A stretch of DNA of 64,000 bases, from positions 1 through 64,000 of the forward strand of contig JAFUDQ010000022.1 of the NCBI GenBank assembly GCA_017459075.1, given 5' to 3'. Positions 1 to 45,335 of the stretch are shown piece after piece. The stretch's first letter is position 1, and each line of letters opens with the position of its first letter. A program made the position numbers and the translations under genes. Origin of the DNA: Bacteroidales bacterium. GTDB taxonomy: Bacteria; Bacteroidota; Bacteroidia; Bacteroidales; UBA932. The notes beneath the pieces are model-generated. The model made no database searches. It was given only the letters and a program-made list of their open reading frames with translations, and was not told the DNA's origin.

Positions 1-3000
1 GTATTTGCCGGCATCATGACGCTGCTATCGTGCAGCACCAGCCTTGATGAAGTAGAAGAGCGCCTGGACAAGGTGGAGGCTCGTGTGGCGGCTCTGGAGA
101 AACTGTGCTCGGAGATGAACAGCAATATCTCCAGCCTGAGATGCATCGTCCAGGCCGTGCAGAACGGGGATTATATCACATCAGTAACACCTTTGACGGA
201 GAACGGCAAAGAGGTGGGTTATACGATAAACTTTTCCAAGGGTAAGCCTATCACGGTTTACCACGGAAAGGATGGAGCCAATGGGAAAGACGGAAAGGAC
301 GGACAGGATGGAAAAGATGGAGAAGATGGTAAAGACGGGACCAATGGTCAGGATGGTCATACTCCTGTGATAGGTGTGAAACAAGACACTGACGGTATTT
401 GGTACTGGACCATTGATGGAGAATGGCTGTTGGACAGCAACAATCAGAAAGTCAAGGCTGTTGGCCTTGACGGGAAGGATGGCCAGAATGGTGCTGATGG
501 TCAGCCCGGATCAGACGGAAAAGATGGGCAGAATGGCCAGGACGGGAAAGACGGTATTACACCACAGCTAAAGATAGAGGACGGCTACTGGTATGTTTCC
601 ACCGACAACGGTGCCACATGGACTCAGTTGGGGAAAGCTACAGGAGAGAATGGTCAGGATGGAAGAGACGGAACGAATGGAGCCGACGGCAAGGATGGAA
701 AGGATGGGAAAGACGGCGATTCAATGTTCCAGAGCGTAAATGTGACCGATACCGAAGTGACATTCGTGACCAGCGACGGCCAGACCTTCGTGATCCGCCG
801 TGCGGCTGCGCTGAGCATTGAGTTCGATTCAGCGGACCTCGTGGTGATGGGTACGAACGCCACTCGCGATATCCACTACACCATCACCTCCGGAGTTGAT
901 GATATTACGATAGAAGCCCTTAGCTCTGCCGATATCAAGGTGAAGGTGAACAGGACCGATGCCAAGACGGGTAGCCTTCAGGTGGTGACCGGAGCGACGA
1001 TTGACGAGTATAGCAAGGTTGTTGTGCTGGTTAACAACGGCAGCCAGGCCATTATGCGAACGCTCACCTTTGAGGAGGAAGCCATTAAGGTAGAGGAGGA
1101 TACCACCAAGGAGGTTACCGATGACGGCGGCGAGGTCACACTGGAGTTCTTCTCCAATGTTCCTTGTCAGGTTGTGATTCCGGAAGATGCCCAGAGCTGG
1201 ATTAGTGTTGCTCCGGAGACCAAGGCGATGGAGAAGCAGACAATTGACTTAATTGTGAAACCGAATGAAGGCTTACCTCGCTCTGCAACTGTCAATGTAG
1301 TAGGCCAAGAAGATGCCTCCAATATCGTTCTTTCGTACACAATCACTCAAGAAGGATTTGGCGGTGGTGTTTTGAATGGTCTTACCGTTCCTCCAGATAA
1401 TGAAATTTGGTACAGAACAGCTGATAACAAAATATATGATGTTACTCAATGTGAGAAAAATTTTTGGCTGAATCAGCCTTTCAATGTGCCACTCATTTCG
1501 AATACTTATGAGAATGGTTTTGGCATAATAAAATGTGATGGTCCCATTATATGTTTAAATAGCGGTGTATTCTACGATAATGAGATCTCTGAACTGTATT
1601 TGCCGGATTGTGTGGAACGCCTGGGAATATGTGCAATTTATCTAACCAAACTAAAGTCATTAAGAATACCGGCTAATCTTAATGAGATTGGTGATTCGGG
1701 GTTAATAGAAAACCTCTATATGGAGAAGTTTAGCGGGGCTCATGTTTCAGAAGATGGGAGATGCGTCATCATTGATGGCACCTTGCATGCTTTTGCTGGA
1801 TATGGGATAATGGACTACACCATTCCTCAAGGTGTTAAAGAAATAGCACATGGCGCGCTAAGGGACTATCATTCTTTGGAATCTGTCGTTATTCCTGAAG
1901 GAGTTGAAACTATTAGGGGAGCTGCATTCTGGGGAGATTCTCATTTAAACTCTGTTTTTTTCCCATCCTCGTTAAAAGCAATTGAAGCACGCGCCTTTAC
2001 TGAATGCTCCGGTATTACTGGCTTCTATGGTAATGACGAGTTTCATACTCCAGATAATAGATGTCTACTATCTAATCCGGCAGGAAAAGGGAAGTGGGTT
2101 TCTTTTTGCGCTGGCAAGGGATTAATAGAATACTCTATTCCGGAAGGTATCGTTGGAATAGAACAAGAATCTTTTGCCTATTGCGAAGAATTAAAGGCTC
2201 TTCACTTACCCAATACCCTAGAGGATGTTGATCCTTGGGCATTTGGTTCTTTAAATACAATAGAAGCCGTATACGGGTCTAAAGCATCAGAAGACCATAA
2301 ATGCATTGTGATAGATGGTAATTTGAAACTGTTTGTGGGGAGGAGAGGAATAACACACTATTCTGTTCCGGAGAGTGTTACAAAGATAGACTTGCTTGCT
2401 TTTGCTCGTAGTACAGAATTGAAGGAGTTAACTATTGGAGATAGTGTGGTGGAACTCGGAAGTGACTGTTTCAGTGATTGTCCCAATCTGGAGACCATTA
2501 TTCTTTCCGCCAACCTAAAAAAAATCAACAGTATAAATCCTTTTGGAGATGCAAATAAAGTCTATTGTCGTTCTCTGATACCTCCTTATCATAATGGTCT
2601 GGGCGATGTAATGCATAGCGGAACTAGCATTTATGTCCCAGAGCAATCGTTATCATTGTACAAAAGACATCCGGGTTGGGCTTTGTATAAAGATAGTTTT
2701 ATTGCATATAATTACAATGATCTTCCATCAGCCGGATATTATATTTCTTCTGACTACACAAAAGATGGAGAAGTGATACCGCTTCAAACGGCATCTATTG
2801 GAAACGGAATTGATATAGTTTTGATGGGAGATGCGTTCAGTGATCGGCAAATAACGAGCGGTCATTACAGGAGTGAAATGGAAAAGCTATATTCATATTT
2901 TTTCAGTGAAGAGCCGTATAAAACCTATAAAGACTGTTTTAATGTGTATTACATTAATGTCGTCTCCGCGACAGAGGGGTACGATAATGAAGGCGCGGCT

Positions 3001-3765
3001 TTATTTGGGTATGAGGAGGATGGCGGCTTACAGCACCAAGCTTGTATAGAATACGCAAGAAAAGCAGTAAGCGAAGACCGAATGGATGAGGCAACAATTA
3101 TCGTTGGTTTTAACTCCTATCAACACGAAGGTTACGCATTCTACTATACTCCAGAATATCATAGCGATTATGGCAGTGGTCTGGGGTTAGCATTTTTCTC
3201 AATAGGCGAAAGTGATGAAGCTACGGAACAATTACTTCATCATGAAGCATGTGGACATGCCTTTGCCAAACTTGCTGATGAATATGAGAACACTGCGGGT
3301 CCTATAAGTGAAGAAAGCAAAAATGCTCACCTTCAAGATCGCAATAATTATGGATGGTATAAGAATATTGACTTTACAAATGATCCGCACACGATTATCT
3401 GGCATGAATTCCTTTCAGATGAACGATATGCAGATGAAGGAGTAGGCATATACGAAGGCGGTAATTGTTTTGAGCAAGGCGTCTGGCGCCCGACCGATGC
3501 CAGCATCATGCGCTACAACACCGGTGGCTTCAACGCGCCCAGCCGCTACGCCATCTGGTACCGCATCGGAAAGCTGGCCTACGGAGAGAGTTGGGAAGGT
3601 GGCTATGAGGACTTCGTGGCTTACGATGCCATCAACCGTACACCGGCTGCAGTAGCGCGTCGCGATGTCCAGCGCCGCCGTGCTGTACAGAAGCCGCTGC
3701 CTCAGCTTCCGCCGCCAGTAGTGGTCGGCCACGGCTGGAGGGAAGAACTCCAGAAGAGGAAGTAG
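1..3765 (+). CDS. DUF4988/collagen-like/BACON/BspA-LRR lipoprotein with M64-type peptidase domain (5' partial)
   Basis: Probable surface lipoprotein metallopeptidase. The frame is open to the window edge and the first residues look like the hydrophobic core of a signal peptide ending in a lipobox (LLSC), so the true start lies upstream; residues here count from the ATG at 16. In order: coiled coil 9-48 (DUF4988 type), GXY collagen-like tracts 84-114, 150-180 and 210-234, a BACON-like domain about 365-445, BspA-type leucine-rich repeats about 450-890, then a peptidase M64 (IgA-peptidase-like) domain with zinc motif HEACGH at 1076-1081 followed by a downstream ADE. The M64 family includes IgA-cleaving enzymes; the substrate here is unknown. 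The stretch from about 1260 to 3470 is visibly more AT-rich than both ends, suggesting a mosaic gene. A dispersed repeat begins directly at the stop codon. Confidence 0.85.
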   Translation, partial: VFAGIMTLLSCSTSLDEVEERLDKVEARVAALEKLCSEMNSNISSLRCIVQAVQNGDYITSVTPLTENGKEVGYTINFSKGKPITVYHGKDGANGKDGKDGQDGKDGEDGKDGTNGQDGHTPVIGVKQDTDGIWYWTIDGEWLLDSNNQKVKAVGLDGKDGQNGADGQPGSDGKDGQNGQDGKDGITPQLKIEDGYWYVSTDNGATWTQLGKATGENGQDGRDGTNGADGKDGKDGKDGDSMFQSVNVTDTEVTFVTSDGQTFVIRRAAALSIEFDSADLVVMGTNATRDIHYTITSGVDDITIEALSSADIKVKVNRTDAKTGSLQVVTGATIDEYSKVVVLVNNGSQAIMRTLTFEEEAIKVEEDTTKEVTDDGGEVTLEFFSNVPCQVVIPEDAQSWISVAPETKAMEKQTIDLIVKPNEGLPRSATVNVVGQEDASNIVLSYTITQEGFGGGVLNGLTVPPDNEIWYRTADNKIYDVTQCEKNFWLNQPFNVPLISNTYENGFGIIKCDGPIICLNSGVFYDNEISELYLPDCVERLGICAIYLTKLKSLRIPANLNEIGDSGLIENLYMEKFSGAHVSEDGRCVIIDGTLHAFAGYGIMDYTIPQGVKEIAHGALRDYHSLESVVIPEGVETIRGAAFWGDSHLNSVFFPSSLKAIEARAFTECSGITGFYGNDEFHTPDNRCLLSNPAGKGKWVSFCAGKGLIEYSIPEGIVGIEQESFAYCEELKALHLPNTLEDVDPWAFGSLNTIEAVYGSKASEDHKCIVIDGNLKLFVGRRGITHYSVPESVTKIDLLAFARSTELKELTIGDSVVELGSDCFSDCPNLETIILSANLKKINSINPFGDANKVYCRSLIPPYHNGLGDVMHSGTSIYVPEQSLSLYKRHPGWALYKDSFIAYNYNDLPSAGYYISSDYTKDGEVIPLQTASIGNGIDIVLMGDAFSDRQITSGHYRSEMEKLYSYFFSEEPYKTYKDCFNVYYINVVSATEGYDNEGAALFGYEEDGGLQHQACIEYARKAVSEDRMDEATIIVGFNSYQHEGYAFYYTPEYHSDYGSGLGLAFFSIGESDEATEQLLHHEACGHAFAKLADEYENTAGPISEESKNAHLQDRNNYGWYKNIDFTNDPHTIIWHEFLSDERYADEGVGIYEGGNCFEQGVWRPTDASIMRYNTGGFNAPSRYAIWYRIGKLAYGESWEGGYEDFVAYDAINRTPAAVARRDVQRRRAVQKPLPQLPPPVVVGHGWREELQKRK

Positions 3766-16389: not shown

Positions 16390-16962
16390 ATGTTTTCAGA
16401 AAACACAAAAAAATCCGGATGTATCGAAGTAATTTGCGGTTCAATGTTCTCCGGAAAGACAGAAGAATTGATTAGAAGGCTTAAAAGAGCCCAGTTCGCA
16501 AAGCAGAAAATCGCCATCTTCAAACCAACCGTCGATAAAAGATACTCAGACCTGGACGTAGTGTCCCATGATTTGCACAGCATCCCCTGCACACCTATAA
16601 AGACCCCTTCAAGAATGCTGAACATAGACCCTGACGTCCAGGTAGTAGGCATCGATGAAGCCCAGTTCTTTGACCTGACCCTGATTGATGTCGTACAGGA
16701 GCTTGCAAACAAGGGAATCCGTGTAATAGTAGCAGGCCTTGACACAGATTATCTTGGCAAGCCCTTCGGTCCTATCCCCGGCCTTATGGCAATCGCCGAG
16801 GACGTGCAGAAAGTCCACGCCATCTGCGTGAAATGCGGAAATCTGGCCAATCATTCGCATCGCCTTTCAGAAAGCAAGAAGCTTGTTGTCCTTGGAGAAA
16901 AGGATGTTTACGAGCCTCTTTGCCGCGAGTGTTTTAACAAGGCAATGTCAGAGGAACAGTAG
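16390..16962 (+). CDS. tdk: Thymidine kinase
   Basis: A 190-aa thymidine kinase (type II, TK1-like) that phosphorylates thymidine to dTMP with ATP for salvage. P-loop [10 protein letters not shown] near the N terminus, the D/E-AQFF motif (GIDEAQFF), lasso-loop region with [13 protein letters not shown], and a structural zinc site formed by CVKCG and CREC. The ATG at 16390 is chosen because the longer frame start lies inside the promoter. Its TAG overlaps the GTG start of xerD by one base, so the two are coupled. Confidence 0.95.
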
Positions 16963-17804
16963 TGATTACTGACCGTTTCCGATACCATCTTAAATATGAA
17001 CGTAAGATGTCTCCGAATACGGTGGCATCTTACGGTTCCGATGTTGATCTTTTCCTTGCGGAAAGCAAGGTGGAAGCGGAGTCGGCATCGGCCCAGGACA
17101 TTGTTGATTACATTTGCACTAAAAATATGTCGGAACGCACCCAGGCCCGTCTTCTGAGCGCGCTCCGATGCTTCTTTAACTTCTTGATTCTTGAGAAGTT
17201 ACGTGAGGATAATCCCTGCGATAAAATTGCTGCTCCCAAGTTGGGGCGATATCTCCCTTCCGTGCTTTCCCTTGAGGAAGTTACGGCTATTATTGAGTCT
17301 GTGGATACTTCTTCATGGAGGGGAAAGAGGGACAGGGCTATTCTGGAAGTTCTTTATGGCTGCGGCCTTCGGGTGTCGGAGGCGGCAAGTCTTCGTCTTT
17401 CCGATATTTTCCGTGAAGAGGGGTTTGTCAGAATCGTCGGCAAAGGGAATAAGCAGCGGCTGGTGCCGATTGGTGAGCTGGCGCTGGAGGCGATTGATAA
17501 TTATTTGGCTGACAGGCCTTTCGAGAGTGATATTCTTTTCCTGAATGCCCATGGGAATCAGCTTTCGCGGGTGTCTGTTTTTAATCTTATAAAGGCGCAG
17601 GCGATTGTTGCGGGCATCCACAAGGAGATTTCGCCTCATACTTTCCGTCATTCTTTTGCTACTCATTTGGTTGAGGCTGGGGCTGATCTTCGCGCTGTGC
17701 AGGAGATGCTGGGGCACGAGAGTATTCTTACTACCGAAATCTATACCCATATTGACCGAGCCACCTGGCAGCGCTCCATCCTGGATCATCACCCAAGGGG
17801 GTGA
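16962..17804 (+). CDS. xerD: Tyrosine recombinase, XerD-like
   Basis: A 280-aa site-specific recombinase with an N-terminal SAM-like core-binding domain (1-90) and a C-terminal catalytic domain. The catalytic set is visible: Arg in GCGLRVSEA, Lys in VGKGNKQR, HTFRHSFATHL, GHESILTT and the Tyr in EIYTH. Length and end-to-end similarity fit the chromosomal XerC/D class that resolves dimers at dif, not the conjugative or invertase classes. GTG start overlapping the tdk stop. The stop codon lies inside a CATCACCC/GGGGTGATG hairpin, and 18 bp of its 3' end are repeated 126 bp downstream. Confidence 0.88.
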   Translation: MITDRFRYHLKYERKMSPNTVASYGSDVDLFLAESKVEAESASAQDIVDYICTKNMSERTQARLLSALRCFFNFLILEKLREDNPCDKIAAPKLGRYLPSVLSLEEVTAIIESVDTSSWRGKRDRAILEVLYGCGLRVSEAASLRLSDIFREEGFVRIVGKGNKQRLVPIGELALEAIDNYLADRPFESDILFLNAHGNQLSRVSVFNLIKAQAIVAGIHKEISPHTFRHSFATHLVEAGADLRAVQEMLGHESILTTEIYTHIDRATWQRSILDHHPRG

Positions 17805-39646: not shown

Positions 39647-41064
39647 CGATTATTATTACGGTTTTAGGGTATCTGGCACTGATGTTTGCGGTGTCATGGT
39701 ACTCTTCAAGAGGCAGTGACAACAACACGTTTTTCAGCGGCGGACGCAAGTCCAACTGGCTCCTTGTTGCCTTTGCGATGATTGGTTCAACCATGTCCGG
39801 AGTGACTTTTGTGTCCGTTCCGGGAATGGTGGCGGCGAATGACTTTGGCTACATGCAGATGTGCCTTGGCTTCATTGCTGGATATCTGGTGATTGCCTTT
39901 GTGCTTACACCGCTGTATTTCAAGATGAACGTGGTGTCCATTTACGAGTATCTGGACAAGAGGTTTGGCGTTACAACCCATAAGACCGGCGCCTGGGTGT
40001 TCTTCATTTCCAAGATTCTGGGTGCTGCCGTAAGGCTTTTCGTGGTTTGCCTGAGCCTTCAGCTGCTTATCTTCGAGCCTCTTGGCCTGCCGTTTGCGCT
40101 TAATGTATTGTTCTCTGTGATAGTTGTTTACGCTTATACATACAAGGGCGGTGTCAAGTCTGTTATCTGGACCGATACTCTTAAAACCTTGTGTATGATC
40201 CTGGCTGTGGTGCTGTCCATCGTGTTCATTGCCCAGAGCCTGGATATCAATATTTTCAAGACTGTCAGCGAGAGTCCTATGTCCCGTATTTTCCATTTTG
40301 AGGACGGAAATTCTACCAACTATTTTTGGAAGCAGTTCCTTGGCGGATTGTTTACTGTTGTTGCGATGACTGGCTTGGATCAGGATATGATGCAGAGGAC
40401 GCTTAGCTGCAAGAATGCTCGTGAGAGCCAGAAGAACCTGATTACCAGCGTGTTCATGCAGGTTGTGGTTATCTTCCTCTTCCTTTGCCTTGGTGTTCTG
40501 CTTTATGCTTTCGCATCGGCAAATGGTATTTCTGAGGGTGGTGACAAACTCTTCCCGGCTGTTGCAACTAGCGGCATGCTGCCTACTATTGTGGGAGTTC
40601 TCTTTATCATCGGCCTTGTTGCGGCTGCTTATGGCGCCGGCGGCAGTGCGCTCACTTCGCTTACCACCAGTTTTACCGTTGATATCATCGGCACAAAGGA
40701 TAAGTCAGAGGCGGCCGTTACCGGTATTCGCAAGCGTGTGCATATTGTGATGGCCCTGCTGATGGGTGTTGTTATCATTGTTTTCAATGCCCTTAATTCC
40801 GACAGTGCCATTACTGCGGTTTACCGTATTGCTTCATACACCTACGGTCCTTTGCTGGGTTTGTTTACCTTTGGTATCGCCTGCAAGAAGGAGGTTCGTG
40901 ACAAGTGGGTGCCGCTGGTGGCTTTGCTTGCCCCAGTTATCTGCCTTGTCCTGGATCTTAATTCGCAGGCTTGGTTCAGCGGCTACAAGATTGGTTTTGA
41001 GTTACTTATCATTAACGCCGCCCTTACCATCCTGGGCCTCTGCCTCCTGATTCGCCGGAAGTAG
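39634..41064 (+). CDS. Sodium:solute symporter (SSS family)
   Basis: A 476-aa polytopic transporter, about 13 transmembrane helices, of the SSS (SGLT-like) family. Markers: FFSGGRKSNWLLVAFAMIGSTMSGVTFVS near the N terminus and AAYGAGGSALTSLTTSFTVDIIG. Substrate probably a sugar released by the neighbouring glycosidases, GlcNAc, fucose or sialic acid, but this is inferred from position only. The start overlaps the GH89 gene by 13 bp. The end is followed by inverted repeats and by copies of the dispersed palindromic element. Confidence 0.87.
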   Translation: MSTLAIIITVLGYLALMFAVSWYSSRGSDNNTFFSGGRKSNWLLVAFAMIGSTMSGVTFVSVPGMVAANDFGYMQMCLGFIAGYLVIAFVLTPLYFKMNVVSIYEYLDKRFGVTTHKTGAWVFFISKILGAAVRLFVVCLSLQLLIFEPLGLPFALNVLFSVIVVYAYTYKGGVKSVIWTDTLKTLCMILAVVLSIVFIAQSLDINIFKTVSESPMSRIFHFEDGNSTNYFWKQFLGGLFTVVAMTGLDQDMMQRTLSCKNARESQKNLITSVFMQVVVIFLFLCLGVLLYAFASANGISEGGDKLFPAVATSGMLPTIVGVLFIIGLVAAAYGAGGSALTSLTTSFTVDIIGTKDKSEAAVTGIRKRVHIVMALLMGVVIIVFNALNSDSAITAVYRIASYTYGPLLGLFTFGIACKKEVRDKWVPLVALLAPVICLVLDLNSQAWFSGYKIGFELLIINAALTILGLCLLIRRK

Positions 41065-41075
41065 CCTCCAGGCTT

Positions 41076-41255
41076 TTTCCCGTCATTCCCGGCCACGACC
41101 GGGAATCTCCTTCTGTCATTTCGACCGAAGGCGTAGCCGTAGCGGAGAAATCTCCCTTCCTTGTCATTCCCGGTTCCGACCCCGTCATTCCGAACGAAGT
41201 GAAGAATCTCCTTTAACGACACAAAATGGCGTTTTACGGGCTTTAAGTCGTTAAA
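41076..41255. repeat. Cluster of dispersed palindromic elements after the symporter gene
   Basis: Contains an ATTCCCGG-type element (41083-41106), a TGTCATTTCGACCGAAG-type element (from about 41115), a further ATTCCCGG fragment and a GTCATTCCGAACGAAG element to 41212. TTTAACGAC (41212-41220) and GTCGTTAAA (41247-41255) then form a 9-bp perfect inverted repeat with a 26-nt loop. This is a landing zone for several repeat families. Confidence 0.75.
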
Positions 41256-41804
41256 AAGATCGGGATAACGCCCGTGGACGCCTTTTGTACGGACGTTACA
41301 CCCCCTCCCAAGCCACCCTTAACGCCCATAATCCCCGTAAAAGCAGGCTATGGCACAAGCGTTAAAGGTGCGAAAGTGCAAGAAAACGGCAGTTTTTCTG
41401 CGCATTCCATTGAAGAAGATACTGCTGTCCCGGTGAAAGGGAAAGAGGGTCCCGTGCTCCTCCGTGTCCTTCACCGCTCCCTGCACCCTTTTTGTCCTTC
41501 GCTGGCAGAGCATTGCCCTGCCGGCCCCCCGCCTCCTTTTGAGGCACCCCCTAGCACTGGGTCCCCCGAAAATTTTCAGTTTTTGGGGTGCTCTACGGGG
41601 GTGGCACGACCTTGCAGGGCAACACCCTGCCTGCTTCGCCGGGCCCACGCACAACACCGACTCTTCCTATTGCCCCTTGCCCCCCCCCCCCTCTTCCTCT
41701 TTCACCACTCCGGCGCACTAACAAGCAGCGACGACCAGTCATGGGCTCCTGAACAAAGTCCTGCAATATTTTTGTCAAAGTTAGATGAAAAGGAAAAAAG
41801 AAGG
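41256..41804. other. Intergenic GC-rich stretch with no supported gene
   Basis: A frame of 178 codons (41274-41810) reads a proline- and cysteine-rich composition with no recognisable domain, promoter or start signal, and I do not accept it as a gene. It contains a C12 tract (41680-41691) and a 40-nt stretch (41376-41415) resembling the terminator region at 4098-4137. Otherwise I see nothing. Confidence 0.6.
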
Positions 41805-41825
41805 CTTTAGCTACTTACTAAAAGC
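41805..41825 (+). repeat. Left arm of 21-bp inverted repeat (predicted inversion site)
   Basis: CTTTAGCTACTTACTAAAAGC, the exact reverse complement of 41972-41992. Each arm is itself an imperfect dyad (CTTTAG, 7-nt centre, CTAAAAG), the layout expected of a tyrosine-recombinase crossover site. Confidence 0.85.
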
Positions 41826-41971
41826 TAAATATCCTTATGCAAATTAGTGTTTAAAACAGTATCAAATACAAATATAGGAATTATTTTCAAAAAAACATCA
41901 AATGTTAGGACTTTAATTAAGAAATTACCTTTCCAGCTTGTTTAAAAGTGTCTATTCGCATACTTCAAAAT
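41826..41971. promoter_or_regulatory. Predicted invertible promoter segment (146 bp)
   Basis: AT-rich DNA between perfect inverted repeats. On the minus strand it carries TATATTTG (complement at 41869-41876), a textbook Bacteroidota -7 element, with TTTG motifs 11 and 22 nt upstream. On the plus strand, facing the lipoprotein gene, the best match is only TACCTTTC (41926-41933). If the segment were inverted, TATATTTG would sit at about 41921-41928 pointing at the ATG at 42039. As assembled, the switch therefore looks OFF. Confidence 0.65.
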
Positions 41972-41992
41972 GCTTTTAGTAAGTAGCTAAAG
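41972..41992 (-). repeat. Right arm of 21-bp inverted repeat (predicted inversion site)
   Basis: GCTTTTAGTAAGTAGCTAAAG, perfect inverted partner of 41805-41825, 46 bp before the lipoprotein start codon. One further outer base pair matches after a single mismatch. Confidence 0.85.
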
Positions 41993-42038
41993 GCAAAAAG
42001 CACTTAATGAAGAAACACTTTTTAAACAATATTTATTT

Positions 42039-45000
42039 ATGAAAAAAGCTATTAAACTCCTGTTGGCAGGTGCTGTAACAGCCCTGTTTGCAGTTGGTTG
42101 TAACAAGGAGTACGATGACTCCGAGATCAACCAAAAGATTAGCGGCTTGGATTCGCGCGTGACAGCGTTGGAAGAAGCCGTTAAGACTCTTAACAACACT
42201 ACTATTCCTGGTTTGCAGAACCTTATCTCTGCATTACAGAATCAGGTAACTATCAGCTCTGTAACTGAAACTTCCGATGGTTACGTTATCAAGTTCTCCG
42301 ATGGTAAAACCGCAACCCTTACCAATGGTAAGGATGGCAAGAACGGAGAGAATGGTAAAGACGGCCAGAACGGCAAGGACGGTGAAAACGGGAAAGATGG
42401 TAAAGATGGCCAGAATGGCAAGGATGGAAAAGACGGTCAGAATGGCCAGGATGGTGCCACTCCGGTCATTGGTGTCAAGTTAGTAGACGGTGTCTATTGC
42501 TGGACAGTAAATGGCGAACTCCTTCTTGATGAGAACAATCAGCCTATCCCCGTAACCGGCAAGGATGGCAAAGATGGAAAAGACGGCCAGGATGGCAAGG
42601 ACGGTGAAAACGGAAAAGATGGCAAAGATGGTCAGGATGGAAAGGATGGCCAGGACGGTAAGGACGCCGTGACTCCTCAGTTCCGCTTCAACGAGGGCGT
42701 GATGGAGTACTCAGTAGACAACGGTACTACCTGGAAACCTGTTCCTTCTACTGGTACGGCAACTCCAGCAATCACCATTGCAGAGACTGAGACAGAGGTA
42801 ACCTTCACCCTTGCCGACGGCAGCAGTTTTGTGATTCCGAAGGAACTTGACTTCAGCATTGTTTTTGAGCTTCCTGAAAAGAATATAATTCTTGCAAATG
42901 ATACGGTTGAAATCCCTTACTCACTCACTGGCGTAAGCACAAATGATGAGGTTTCAGTGGATATCCTTAACATCATTCCTAATTATTCGGCATTTGCGCA
43001 GTCTAAAGTAATACCCGCGGACAATAAATCCGGTATTGTATCACTCACATCAACCGACTGGAGTGACGATGTAGAATACAAGATTTTTGTATATGCTGCA
43101 AATGGCAGGGGTAAGACCGACATCAAGGCAATCGTTATGACAACCAAGAGCTTTGATGCTGTTTTGGATGTTGAGACTGCACCTGCTGAGGGTGGCTCGT
43201 TTGATTTTGATATTGTCTCCAATGACGAGTTCTACACTACAGTTTCTGCAGATTGGCTTAGTGTAATTGATACTAAGGCTAATTATGAGCTTCATGGAAC
43301 CCTTAAGGCAGAGCCTAATGAAACCGGAGAATTCAGATATGCTTACGTTTATGTCCGCAGGACCAGTGATAATTACATAATTAAACGCTTTATCGTACGT
43401 CAGGATCCTGCAGGTGACGTTACCACTACTTTGTCTACGTTCTTTAACAGTACCCGGGTTCCGAGTGATACGAAGGTGACACTCAACCGTCTTACTGTTA
43501 TTGCCGCAGGAAAGAAGATGGCAGTCGTTACTGATGGTATAAATTTGAATTCTATTTATTCTTATTTGGTCGTTAATAATCTGACACAGCAAGTTGAAGT
43601 TGGAAAAGTATATAATCTTGTTGGAACAAAAAAATACAACGATGAAAAGTATATGTATGAATTGGATGAAGCGACTCCGACGGAAGTAACTGACGCAGAG
43701 CCTGTTGAGTTTAAATTCAATTCCGGACGATTCAATTATAATTGCCGTATTAATAGGAGTGCAAGCGTAATCTATGGTGAGATTGAAAAGGTTGGTGACA
43801 ATCTGGTATTGAAGAACCTCTTCTACGATAACTGTGATATAATTATCGAGGACTCAAAGGATGACCTTAATAACCTGGTTGGCAAAACTGTCTTTATGAA
43901 GGTAATGGTTATGGATTTATATAAGGATAAAGAAACCCCTGGCCTCATACATTTAGGTGTCATTCCTACGGAAGTGAATGTCATAGAGTATAAGGAGGCA
44001 ACAAATCTTGTTTATGAAAATGACAAGTACTTTGAGGCTTCCGTAACTTCTAAGGAGGGAACATATTTCTCATTCCTGAATTTCGATATCGACGAAGACA
44101 ATCCTGAACCGGATTTGGATGCCATGAAGGCATTGTACAAAGACGCAGTAATCAATATGTTTACTCGTCTTAACAATGAAACAGATGTTGAGACCGCTGT
44201 GTCTTATTCTCAGATAACCGGATCCGTTAGTGATAATCTTCTCGATCATGCAGTAGGTGCTAAGCGCGGCCTTATTGCCGTAGCATTTGACAAGAACGGC
44301 CCTACCGGTGAGTACATTGTTAAGACCTATGCCCGCGAACCAGTTCCTTATGAGAATTATCTTGGTTATTGGCAGACCAACAATGGTGTTTTGAAACTTG
44401 AACAGGATGAAGCGAACAGGACATATAAAGTTCGTGGCTTATTCTGGGATTGGAATGCCGAACTTACTTTCAAGTATGACAAGGAAGAAGGTATAGTCCT
44501 TATCCCCAGTCAGGATATGTATTCCGCTGAGGAAAGGGAAGATGGCTATCATGTAAGAGTACTTGACAATATGAATGGTTTTTTCATTCAAAACAGGGGT
44601 GTCGATATTGATGCTCCCAAGTATTCAGATGTTGGACAAAATATCGGAAGTGTTCAGTTGGTAAATAGTGACAGTTTCAGGTTCACTCCACTTAATGTTC
44701 CGGAGGAATATGGAAGATATTCGTATTTAACCCTCAATGATTACAATATTACAACTGGTGAATTCTCTAATGTAAGTAATCTTTATAGGGTAGGTAATAA
44801 TTGCTATCGTACTGATCCTTCCGAGGCATATCTTGCTTGGGGTGGTAACTGGAAACTTGGTGAAAGCGTGATTACCATTACTCCTGTTGAGAACAGCTCT
44901 ACAGAGTACACAATCACTGGAATGCATCCTAATCTGGATATAACTTTATATGCCAACTTTGACATGTCTACCGGGAATGTAGATATCTACGGCTACCAGG

Positions 45001-45335
45001 ATACTGGAAAGGAATATACCAAGGATGGTCACAAGTATCATTATTATCTTGTTGGTAAACCCAACGCTGAAGATGTAGAATGGATTACAGGTGACAAACT
45101 TGTATCCTTCGTAAAGAATGAGGATGGTACTATCACAGTTAAAGCCGGTGTTTGCTCTTATGACAACGAAACACTGTATGGTAAGTTCGGTCTTGTTGGT
45201 AACTTCGCTGACATTTGGGATTGGAACGGTAAAGACGCAGTTGTATTTGACCTGCCTAATACACTTGTCAAAGCTGATTCTCCTGTTGAATCATCTCGTA
45301 GGTCTTTGAAGAAAGTCTCTCTTATAAAAGACTAG
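42039..45335 (+). CDS. DUF4988 lipoprotein with collagen-like tracts and BACON-like domain
   Basis: A 1098-aa predicted surface lipoprotein. Signal peptide with lipobox FAVGC (Cys21), DUF4988 coiled coil about 25-70 ending TIPGLQNLISALQNQV, collagen-like GXY tracts of the GKDG type at 97-139 and 174-209 separated by a TPVIGVK...WTVNGE module, then beta domains, including a BACON-like one around 375-465, and a long C-terminal region with no recognised family. Same front architecture as the truncated gene at 1-3765, but no peptidase. Function unknown; probably an adhesin or glycan-binding stalk. It sits directly behind the predicted invertible promoter and is closed by the hairpin at 45362-45398. 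Confidence 0.85.
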   Translation: MKKAIKLLLAGAVTALFAVGCNKEYDDSEINQKISGLDSRVTALEEAVKTLNNTTIPGLQNLISALQNQVTISSVTETSDGYVIKFSDGKTATLTNGKDGKNGENGKDGQNGKDGENGKDGKDGQNGKDGKDGQNGQDGATPVIGVKLVDGVYCWTVNGELLLDENNQPIPVTGKDGKDGKDGQDGKDGENGKDGKDGQDGKDGQDGKDAVTPQFRFNEGVMEYSVDNGTTWKPVPSTGTATPAITIAETETEVTFTLADGSSFVIPKELDFSIVFELPEKNIILANDTVEIPYSLTGVSTNDEVSVDILNIIPNYSAFAQSKVIPADNKSGIVSLTSTDWSDDVEYKIFVYAANGRGKTDIKAIVMTTKSFDAVLDVETAPAEGGSFDFDIVSNDEFYTTVSADWLSVIDTKANYELHGTLKAEPNETGEFRYAYVYVRRTSDNYIIKRFIVRQDPAGDVTTTLSTFFNSTRVPSDTKVTLNRLTVIAAGKKMAVVTDGINLNSIYSYLVVNNLTQQVEVGKVYNLVGTKKYNDEKYMYELDEATPTEVTDAEPVEFKFNSGRFNYNCRINRSASVIYGEIEKVGDNLVLKNLFYDNCDIIIEDSKDDLNNLVGKTVFMKVMVMDLYKDKETPGLIHLGVIPTEVNVIEYKEATNLVYENDKYFEASVTSKEGTYFSFLNFDIDEDNPEPDLDAMKALYKDAVINMFTRLNNETDVETAVSYSQITGSVSDNLLDHAVGAKRGLIAVAFDKNGPTGEYIVKTYAREPVPYENYLGYWQTNNGVLKLEQDEANRTYKVRGLFWDWNAELTFKYDKEEGIVLIPSQDMYSAEEREDGYHVRVLDNMNGFFIQNRGVDIDAPKYSDVGQNIGSVQLVNSDSFRFTPLNVPEEYGRYSYLTLNDYNITTGEFSNVSNLYRVGNNCYRTDPSEAYLAWGGNWKLGESVITITPVENSSTEYTITGMHPNLDITLYANFDMSTGNVDIYGYQDTGKEYTKDGHKYHYYLVGKPNAEDVEWITGDKLVSFVKNEDGTITVKAGVCSYDNETLYGKFGLVGNFADIWDWNGKDAVVFDLPNTLVKADSPVESSRRSLKKVSLIKD

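Follow-up and report, generated by a model that had tools for sequence, protein, structure and literature searches.

A predicted invertible promoter upstream of a collagen-like DUF4988 lipoprotein gene in a Bacteroidales genome

In the 64,000 nucleotides of Bacteroidales DNA analysed here (the window), the unit at 41805-41992 is probably an invertible promoter of the kind known in Bacteroidales, assembled in the OFF orientation and served by an enzyme, of whatever type, encoded in trans (probability about 0.67). The 146-bp segment would be flipped by crossover at the two 21-bp sites, carried out by a site-specific recombinase that acts in trans and is most likely an invertase of the tyrosine type. 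In the assembled orientation, the putative promoter would read leftward, away from the gene (OFF); in the flipped one, TATATTTG would be at 41921 on the plus strand and drive expression of the lipoprotein, with a leader of about 100 nt (ON). We infer both the inversion and the assignment of the two states. If the segment inverts, the surface proteins under the control of DNA inversion would gain a collagen-like lipoprotein, from a large and uncultured genus of Bacteroidales that is probably Candidatus Cryptobacteroides. The site, 41805-41992, can be checked in existing metagenome reads. The features are listed in Table 1.

Table 1. Coordinates of the predicted switch, its target and the other genes and repeats discussed (window positions unless a contig or locus is named).
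Feature	Position	Strand	Remarks
Left arm, predicted recombination site	41805..41825	+	TTTAG-N7-CTAAA at 41806-41822
Segment predicted to invert	41826..41971	.	AT-rich, 146 bp; 24% GC (window, 49%)
Right arm, perfect reverse complement of left	41972..41992	-	dyad at 41975-41991
TATATTTG, -7 element facing away from the lipoprotein gene	41869..41876	-	lone exact match in the segment
TTTG, candidate -33 element	41899..41902	-	22 nt from the -7 element
TATTTTTG, weak -7 match outside the segment	41767..41774	+	no TTG at the usual -33 spacing
Lipoprotein gene, predicted target	42039..45335	+	1098 aa; DUF4988 and collagen-like repeats
Xer-like tyrosine recombinases (two)	16962-17804; contig C21
Other tyrosine recombinases	one on contig C30		three of 444-475 aa; that on C30 of 309 aa
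Mpi-family invertase genes, head-to-head with a DUF4988 lipoprotein gene	L009:4252-4863, L048:6340-6951
GC-rich core repeats	L120:6938-7065, L126:8580-8709, L122:12975-13142, L121:11093-11227, L045:190-318, L128:1425-1550, L113:13838-13986

Repeat unit and target gene

The arms form a perfect inverted repeat (21 of 21 positions complementary) with 146 nt between them, and the whole unit of 188 bp ends 46 bp before the ATG at 42039. The original prediction of a perfect repeat around an AT-rich spacer just upstream of the gene is therefore borne out. Arms of this length are beyond chance expectation: the best perfect inverted repeat in 40 first-order Markov shuffles had 17 nt, and the next-longest one in the window, among arms at most 2 kb apart, has 14 nt. 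In the parts of the published literature drawn on here, invertons are described as inverted repeats of about 10 to 40 nt flanking a segment before a gene, a range that includes the 21-bp unit. The arm is present as a single pair in its own genome (2,318,830 bases, 53 contigs) at up to 3 mismatches and is therefore no repeated element, while the TTTAG-N7-CTAAA dyad has one further occurrence elsewhere in the genome. A MITE or transposon end was rejected, since the arms are single copy and their ends were seen by eye to carry no direct duplication of 3 bases or more.

The predicted target was annotated at the outset as a collagen-like DUF4988 lipoprotein, and this was confirmed by domain matches to DUF4988 (E = 6.4e-24) and collagen repeats (E = 5.6e-14) and by a lipobox, AVGC, recognised by eye. 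A PDB search with the protein gave no match at E 0.01, and a literature search that included DUF4988 gave no paper to the point. The left-hand neighbours, on the same strand, encode a sodium:solute symporter, a NAGLU-type glycosidase and an alpha-L-fucosidase; between the last of these genes and the repeat unit lies an intergenic region of 740 bp (55% GC). At the start of the window (1-3765), the first base of contig C13 falls within, or at the edge of, the 5' end of a further DUF4988 gene.

Promoter motifs

The segment carries a promoter motif, as expected of an inverton: TATATTTG, read from 41876 to 41869 on the minus strand, with TTTG at a spacing of 22. Its orientation away from the gene agrees with the original prediction, and so does the weak TACCTTTC that starts at 41926 on the plus strand. 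Inversion would turn TATATTTG towards the gene, at a distance of 118 nt from the ATG. The fixed 46 bp between the unit and the gene (41993-42038) hold no exact -7 motif.

In this genome, TAnnTTTG is enriched ahead of ORFs. Among 71 regions upstream of ORFs, drawn from the window and eight stretches of the same genome, it was found in the sense direction in 40 and in antisense in 25, against a shuffled mean of 5.5. A TTG at a spacing of 19-22 accompanied 15 of the 34 hits that had enough upstream sequence, with a peak at 20 (9 hits) and 2 hits at 22, so that the candidate -33 element of the segment is off the genome peak. The -7 motif alone is weak evidence, because TAnnTTTG is carried on either strand by 31% of 2000 shuffled spacers.

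Four short stretches of 30-58 nt, in G014, G045, G052 and G059, were matched in a DNA search of 61 genomes, two of them over the segment's promoter and two around the ATG. The 34 nt at 41861-41894, which span the promoter, are 88% alike to a stretch in one other genome of the genus, G014 (E = 3e-5), where TAATTTTG lies between divergent ORFs and is aimed at an ORF start 71 nt on. This likeness lends weak support to a promoter in the segment. The second match over the promoter stretch, in G052 (same order), has no TAnnTTTG there.

Arms and recombinases

The repeats reported for tyrosine-type invertases or integrases of Bacteroidales are GTTAC-N7-GTAAC in B. thetaiotaomicron and B. xylanisolvens and GCTAC-N7-GTAGC in P. 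distasonis, and in the cases described in the part of that paper drawn on here an invertase or integrase gene precedes the repeats (PMC12118408). The arms have the same 5-N7-5 layout, with half-sites, TTTAG and CTAAA, that are partly alike. Aligned without gaps, the B. thetaiotaomicron consensus CCGTTACCTABVRAGTAAC matches the left arm at 12 and the right arm at 13 of 19 positions, in register with the dyad. In 3000 shuffles of the left arm with its 4-nt flanks, and uncorrected for the four consensuses compared, this likeness had p = 0.007 for the left arm, and that to GCTACTYRGNRAGTAGC of P. distasonis (12/17, in another register) had p = 0.02; for the consensuses of B. xylanisolvens (11-12/20) and B. 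intestinalis (5-6/10), p was 0.11 and 1.0. The earlier comparison of the arms with tyrosine-recombinase sites agrees in the 7-nt centre and the B. thetaiotaomicron register, the half-sites being partly alike only. Counting against the inverton, GTTAC-N7-GTAAC is absent from the sampled 38.7% of the genome (897,911 bases), where GCTAC-N7-GTAGC has a single site. Taken together, the dyad and the consensus likeness would favour a tyrosine-type enzyme, to which we give roughly even odds.

The genome encodes six tyrosine recombinases and two serine recombinases of the Mpi master invertase family (NCBIfam scores of 343.8 and 317.8; cut-off, 272). Within these two families, the nearest gene to the repeat is the XerD/XerC-like one of the window, 24 kb off, and none adjoins the repeat, as an invertase or integrase gene would at a typical tyrosine-type site. 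With no recombinase gene adjacent and with long perfect repeats of another kind in the genome, the repeat by itself does not identify an inverton. The 309-aa recombinase on contig C30 is a possible but unlikely candidate for the enzyme. A 17-bp repeat beside the gene of this recombinase (L044:9994-10095) was considered as a related site and rejected, being unlike the arm; a PD-(D/E)XK transposase gene adjoins it.

These features can be set against the known systems, as described in the portions of the literature on Bacteroidales inversion used here (PMC12118408, PMC4747536, PMC11892184, PMC3090145, PMC12548429). Lipoproteins are a class with known inversion control, the example being BT1927, the S-layer lipoprotein of B. 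thetaiotaomicron. Its promoter and related loci resemble the present unit in having a promoter, enclosed by short 5-N7-5 repeats, that precedes a surface lipoprotein gene; by our reading, the BT1927 promoter and the loci with the 19-nt consensus given above are the same locus in two papers. They differ in their half-sites (GTTAC/GTAAC), and the unit described here has no invertase gene nearby and an inversion that is predicted only. In B. fragilis, the IVp-I and IVp-II promoters are inverted by the tyrosine recombinase BF2766 (Tsr19), which is described as acting in trans on a promoter remote from its own gene, ahead of a cluster that includes a lipoprotein gene, as proposed here; the BF2766 gene adjoins one of its two targets, whereas no recombinase gene was found linked to the target in this genome. 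The Mpi enzyme of B. fragilis, reported as one master enzyme for 13 promoter regions, offers the same kind of promoter inversion and has family members in this genome, but the arm here is unique in its genome. A literature search for Cryptobacteroides and phase variation found no paper.

Relatives and Mpi-family genes

A search with the lipoprotein in 300 genomes of the genus found 16 with matches at E ≤ 1e-60, its own genome included, and a search of contigs added RUG331 (L009, 54% identity) and L010. The stretches upstream of the homologous genes contain repeats of 11-17 nt, mismatched where longer than 12 nt, and none is the window's repeat. The lipoprotein gene in L009 and in L048 (G005) has a full Mpi-family gene beside it in head-to-head orientation. 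These two loci were the matches in a tblastn search for the Mpi-family gene in 19 homologous loci and the window, most of the loci having 1.5 kb of flank only and L049 only 175 bp. The two share 93-99% identity across much of their length and hence represent one lineage. Since the genes beside the window's lipoprotein gene are arranged differently from those in L009, orthology is uncertain. In a third locus, L049 of G061, about 11 codons at the contig start resemble by eye the beginning of an Mpi-family gene. In L009 and L027, the gene has a flanking repeat of 11 bp, which is too short to claim inversion; the Mpi-family gene at L048:6340-6951 is also flanked by an 11-bp inverted repeat.

The unit might accordingly be inverted by an Mpi-family serine invertase instead of a tyrosine recombinase, a question of enzyme that overlaps the preferred reading. 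The two Mpi-family genes above the cut-off and the head-to-head arrangement in the two close homologues argue for it, the latter less so as these are close sisters of one lineage. For serine recombinase sites an even-length centre is expected, and the best-scoring dyad in the arm has an odd, 7-nt centre. A master enzyme would also be expected to have several similar sites, against the single arm pair found at up to 3 mismatches, and the repeats beside Mpi-family genes in the genus differ in sequence from the arm. We consider this enzyme unlikely.

The stretches examined around the two Mpi-family genes of the genome had no repeats reaching 13 bp, the best being 9 bp on C6 and 12 bp on C33. The gene on C6 precedes an array of ORFs, the first two of which match the Pfam fimbrillin-like family. 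Across the genus, Mpi-family genes were found in 82 of 300 genomes at E ≤ 1e-60, with 32 above the cut-off. Perfect repeats of 22-59 bp flank the gene in 3 of the 30 loci inspected, and L074:1411-2376, L077:1428-2183 and L076:1361-2224 are candidate invertible cassettes enclosing Mpi-family genes. In L074 and L077, SusC-like genes were seen by eye on both sides of the Mpi-family gene. It is conceivable, albeit doubtful, that the collagen-like DUF4988 lipoproteins of the genus make up a phase-variable coat, whose inversion control would have been acquired more than once through unrelated enzymes, tyrosine-type here and Mpi-family serine in the relatives.

Alternatives without ongoing inversion

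The unit could instead be a static RNA or DNA element, with transcription starting upstream (e.g., at TATTTTTG) and a leader stem or two operator copies regulating the gene. The outer 21-bp stem would indeed fold strongly as RNA (z = -4.8), and the -7 match at 41767, which the original prediction does not mention, is a possible inversion-independent promoter. The latter has no -33 element; the segment inside the stem is no more structured than its shuffles (z = +0.55), and no terminator-like site was found in 41000-42100. A pair of operators would presumably not need 21-bp identity that extends to the asymmetric centre, and the dyad occurs just once elsewhere in the genome. A static element is quite unlikely.

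We give a similarly low, perhaps slightly lower, probability to a locked or relic switch, which would have inverted once, lost its recombinase and become fixed OFF. This would fit the lack of an adjacent recombinase gene and an arm that is unique in its genome and absent from the relatives searched. At up to 2 mismatches, the arm was absent from the other 299 genomes of the genus searched; a DNA search in 400 genomes matched only the unit itself and, in G061, a coding region. A search of the 400 genomes for the dyad pair, over a limited range of spacers, found no second copy of the switch, and neither did searches of viral contigs. A relic is at odds with arms that are still identical at 21 of 21 positions and with the eight recombinase genes, in the two families searched, that the genome still has. 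No copy in the flipped orientation was found in the searches of the unit's own genome, relative genomes or viral contigs. The reading as an invertible promoter is supported in part, by a layout that fits the OFF orientation, and qualified by the missing adjacent recombinase gene and flipped copy.

Other long repeats of the genome

The 897,911 bases sampled yielded eight perfect repeats whose arms measure 20 bp or more and whose spacers measure 40-1000 nt. Seven have GC-rich spacers (51-69%) and arms of 22-25 bp, and the window's repeat alone is AT rich. Because seven of the eight belong to this GC-rich class, a long perfect repeat is in itself no proof of an inverton in this genome. BLAST linked six of the seven cores, and the seventh (L128) weakly, and gave no match between them and the window's spacer. 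By mechanical ORF calls, at least four of the seven (L113, L126, L122 and L120) lie 1-68 bp past the end of an ORF, and three (L113, L122 and L128) lie 18-182 bp before the start of one, two of these being also past an ORF end. A related core is found at 41564-41612, near the arms but outside them. That the window's unit belongs to this class, as a terminator-like hairpin or mobile intergenic element, is highly improbable: arms of similar length, the three copies likewise placed before an ORF and the nearby core speak for it, but the spacer is AT rich and unlike the cores, which weakens this reading, and the unit lies 740 bp past the last gene, not directly behind an ORF end as at least four of the seven do.

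The GC-rich, hairpin-forming cores adjoin perfect inverted repeats of 22-25 bp in 7 of 13 core copies, three of these seven being the chosen queries. Their arms differ between copies, none being seen in the sample outside its own pair, and three share about 8-10 inner nt. Such core-abutting repeats would be consistent with an element that has hairpin loops as its target, and also with one that leaves behind inverted copies of its target.

Contig C38 (36,084 bases; L112) is a 99.99% copy of part of C22 (L109); this redundancy of the assembly agrees with the estimate of 8% contamination. L109:12049-12595 (= L112:6769-7315) carries a 34-bp inverted repeat with one mismatch and an inner spacer of 479 nt, which encloses a tRNA-Leu gene. 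The right arm of the repeat forms the beginning of a lipoprotein-like ORF, whose signal-peptide start is thus duplicated in reverse just after a DUF4988 gene.
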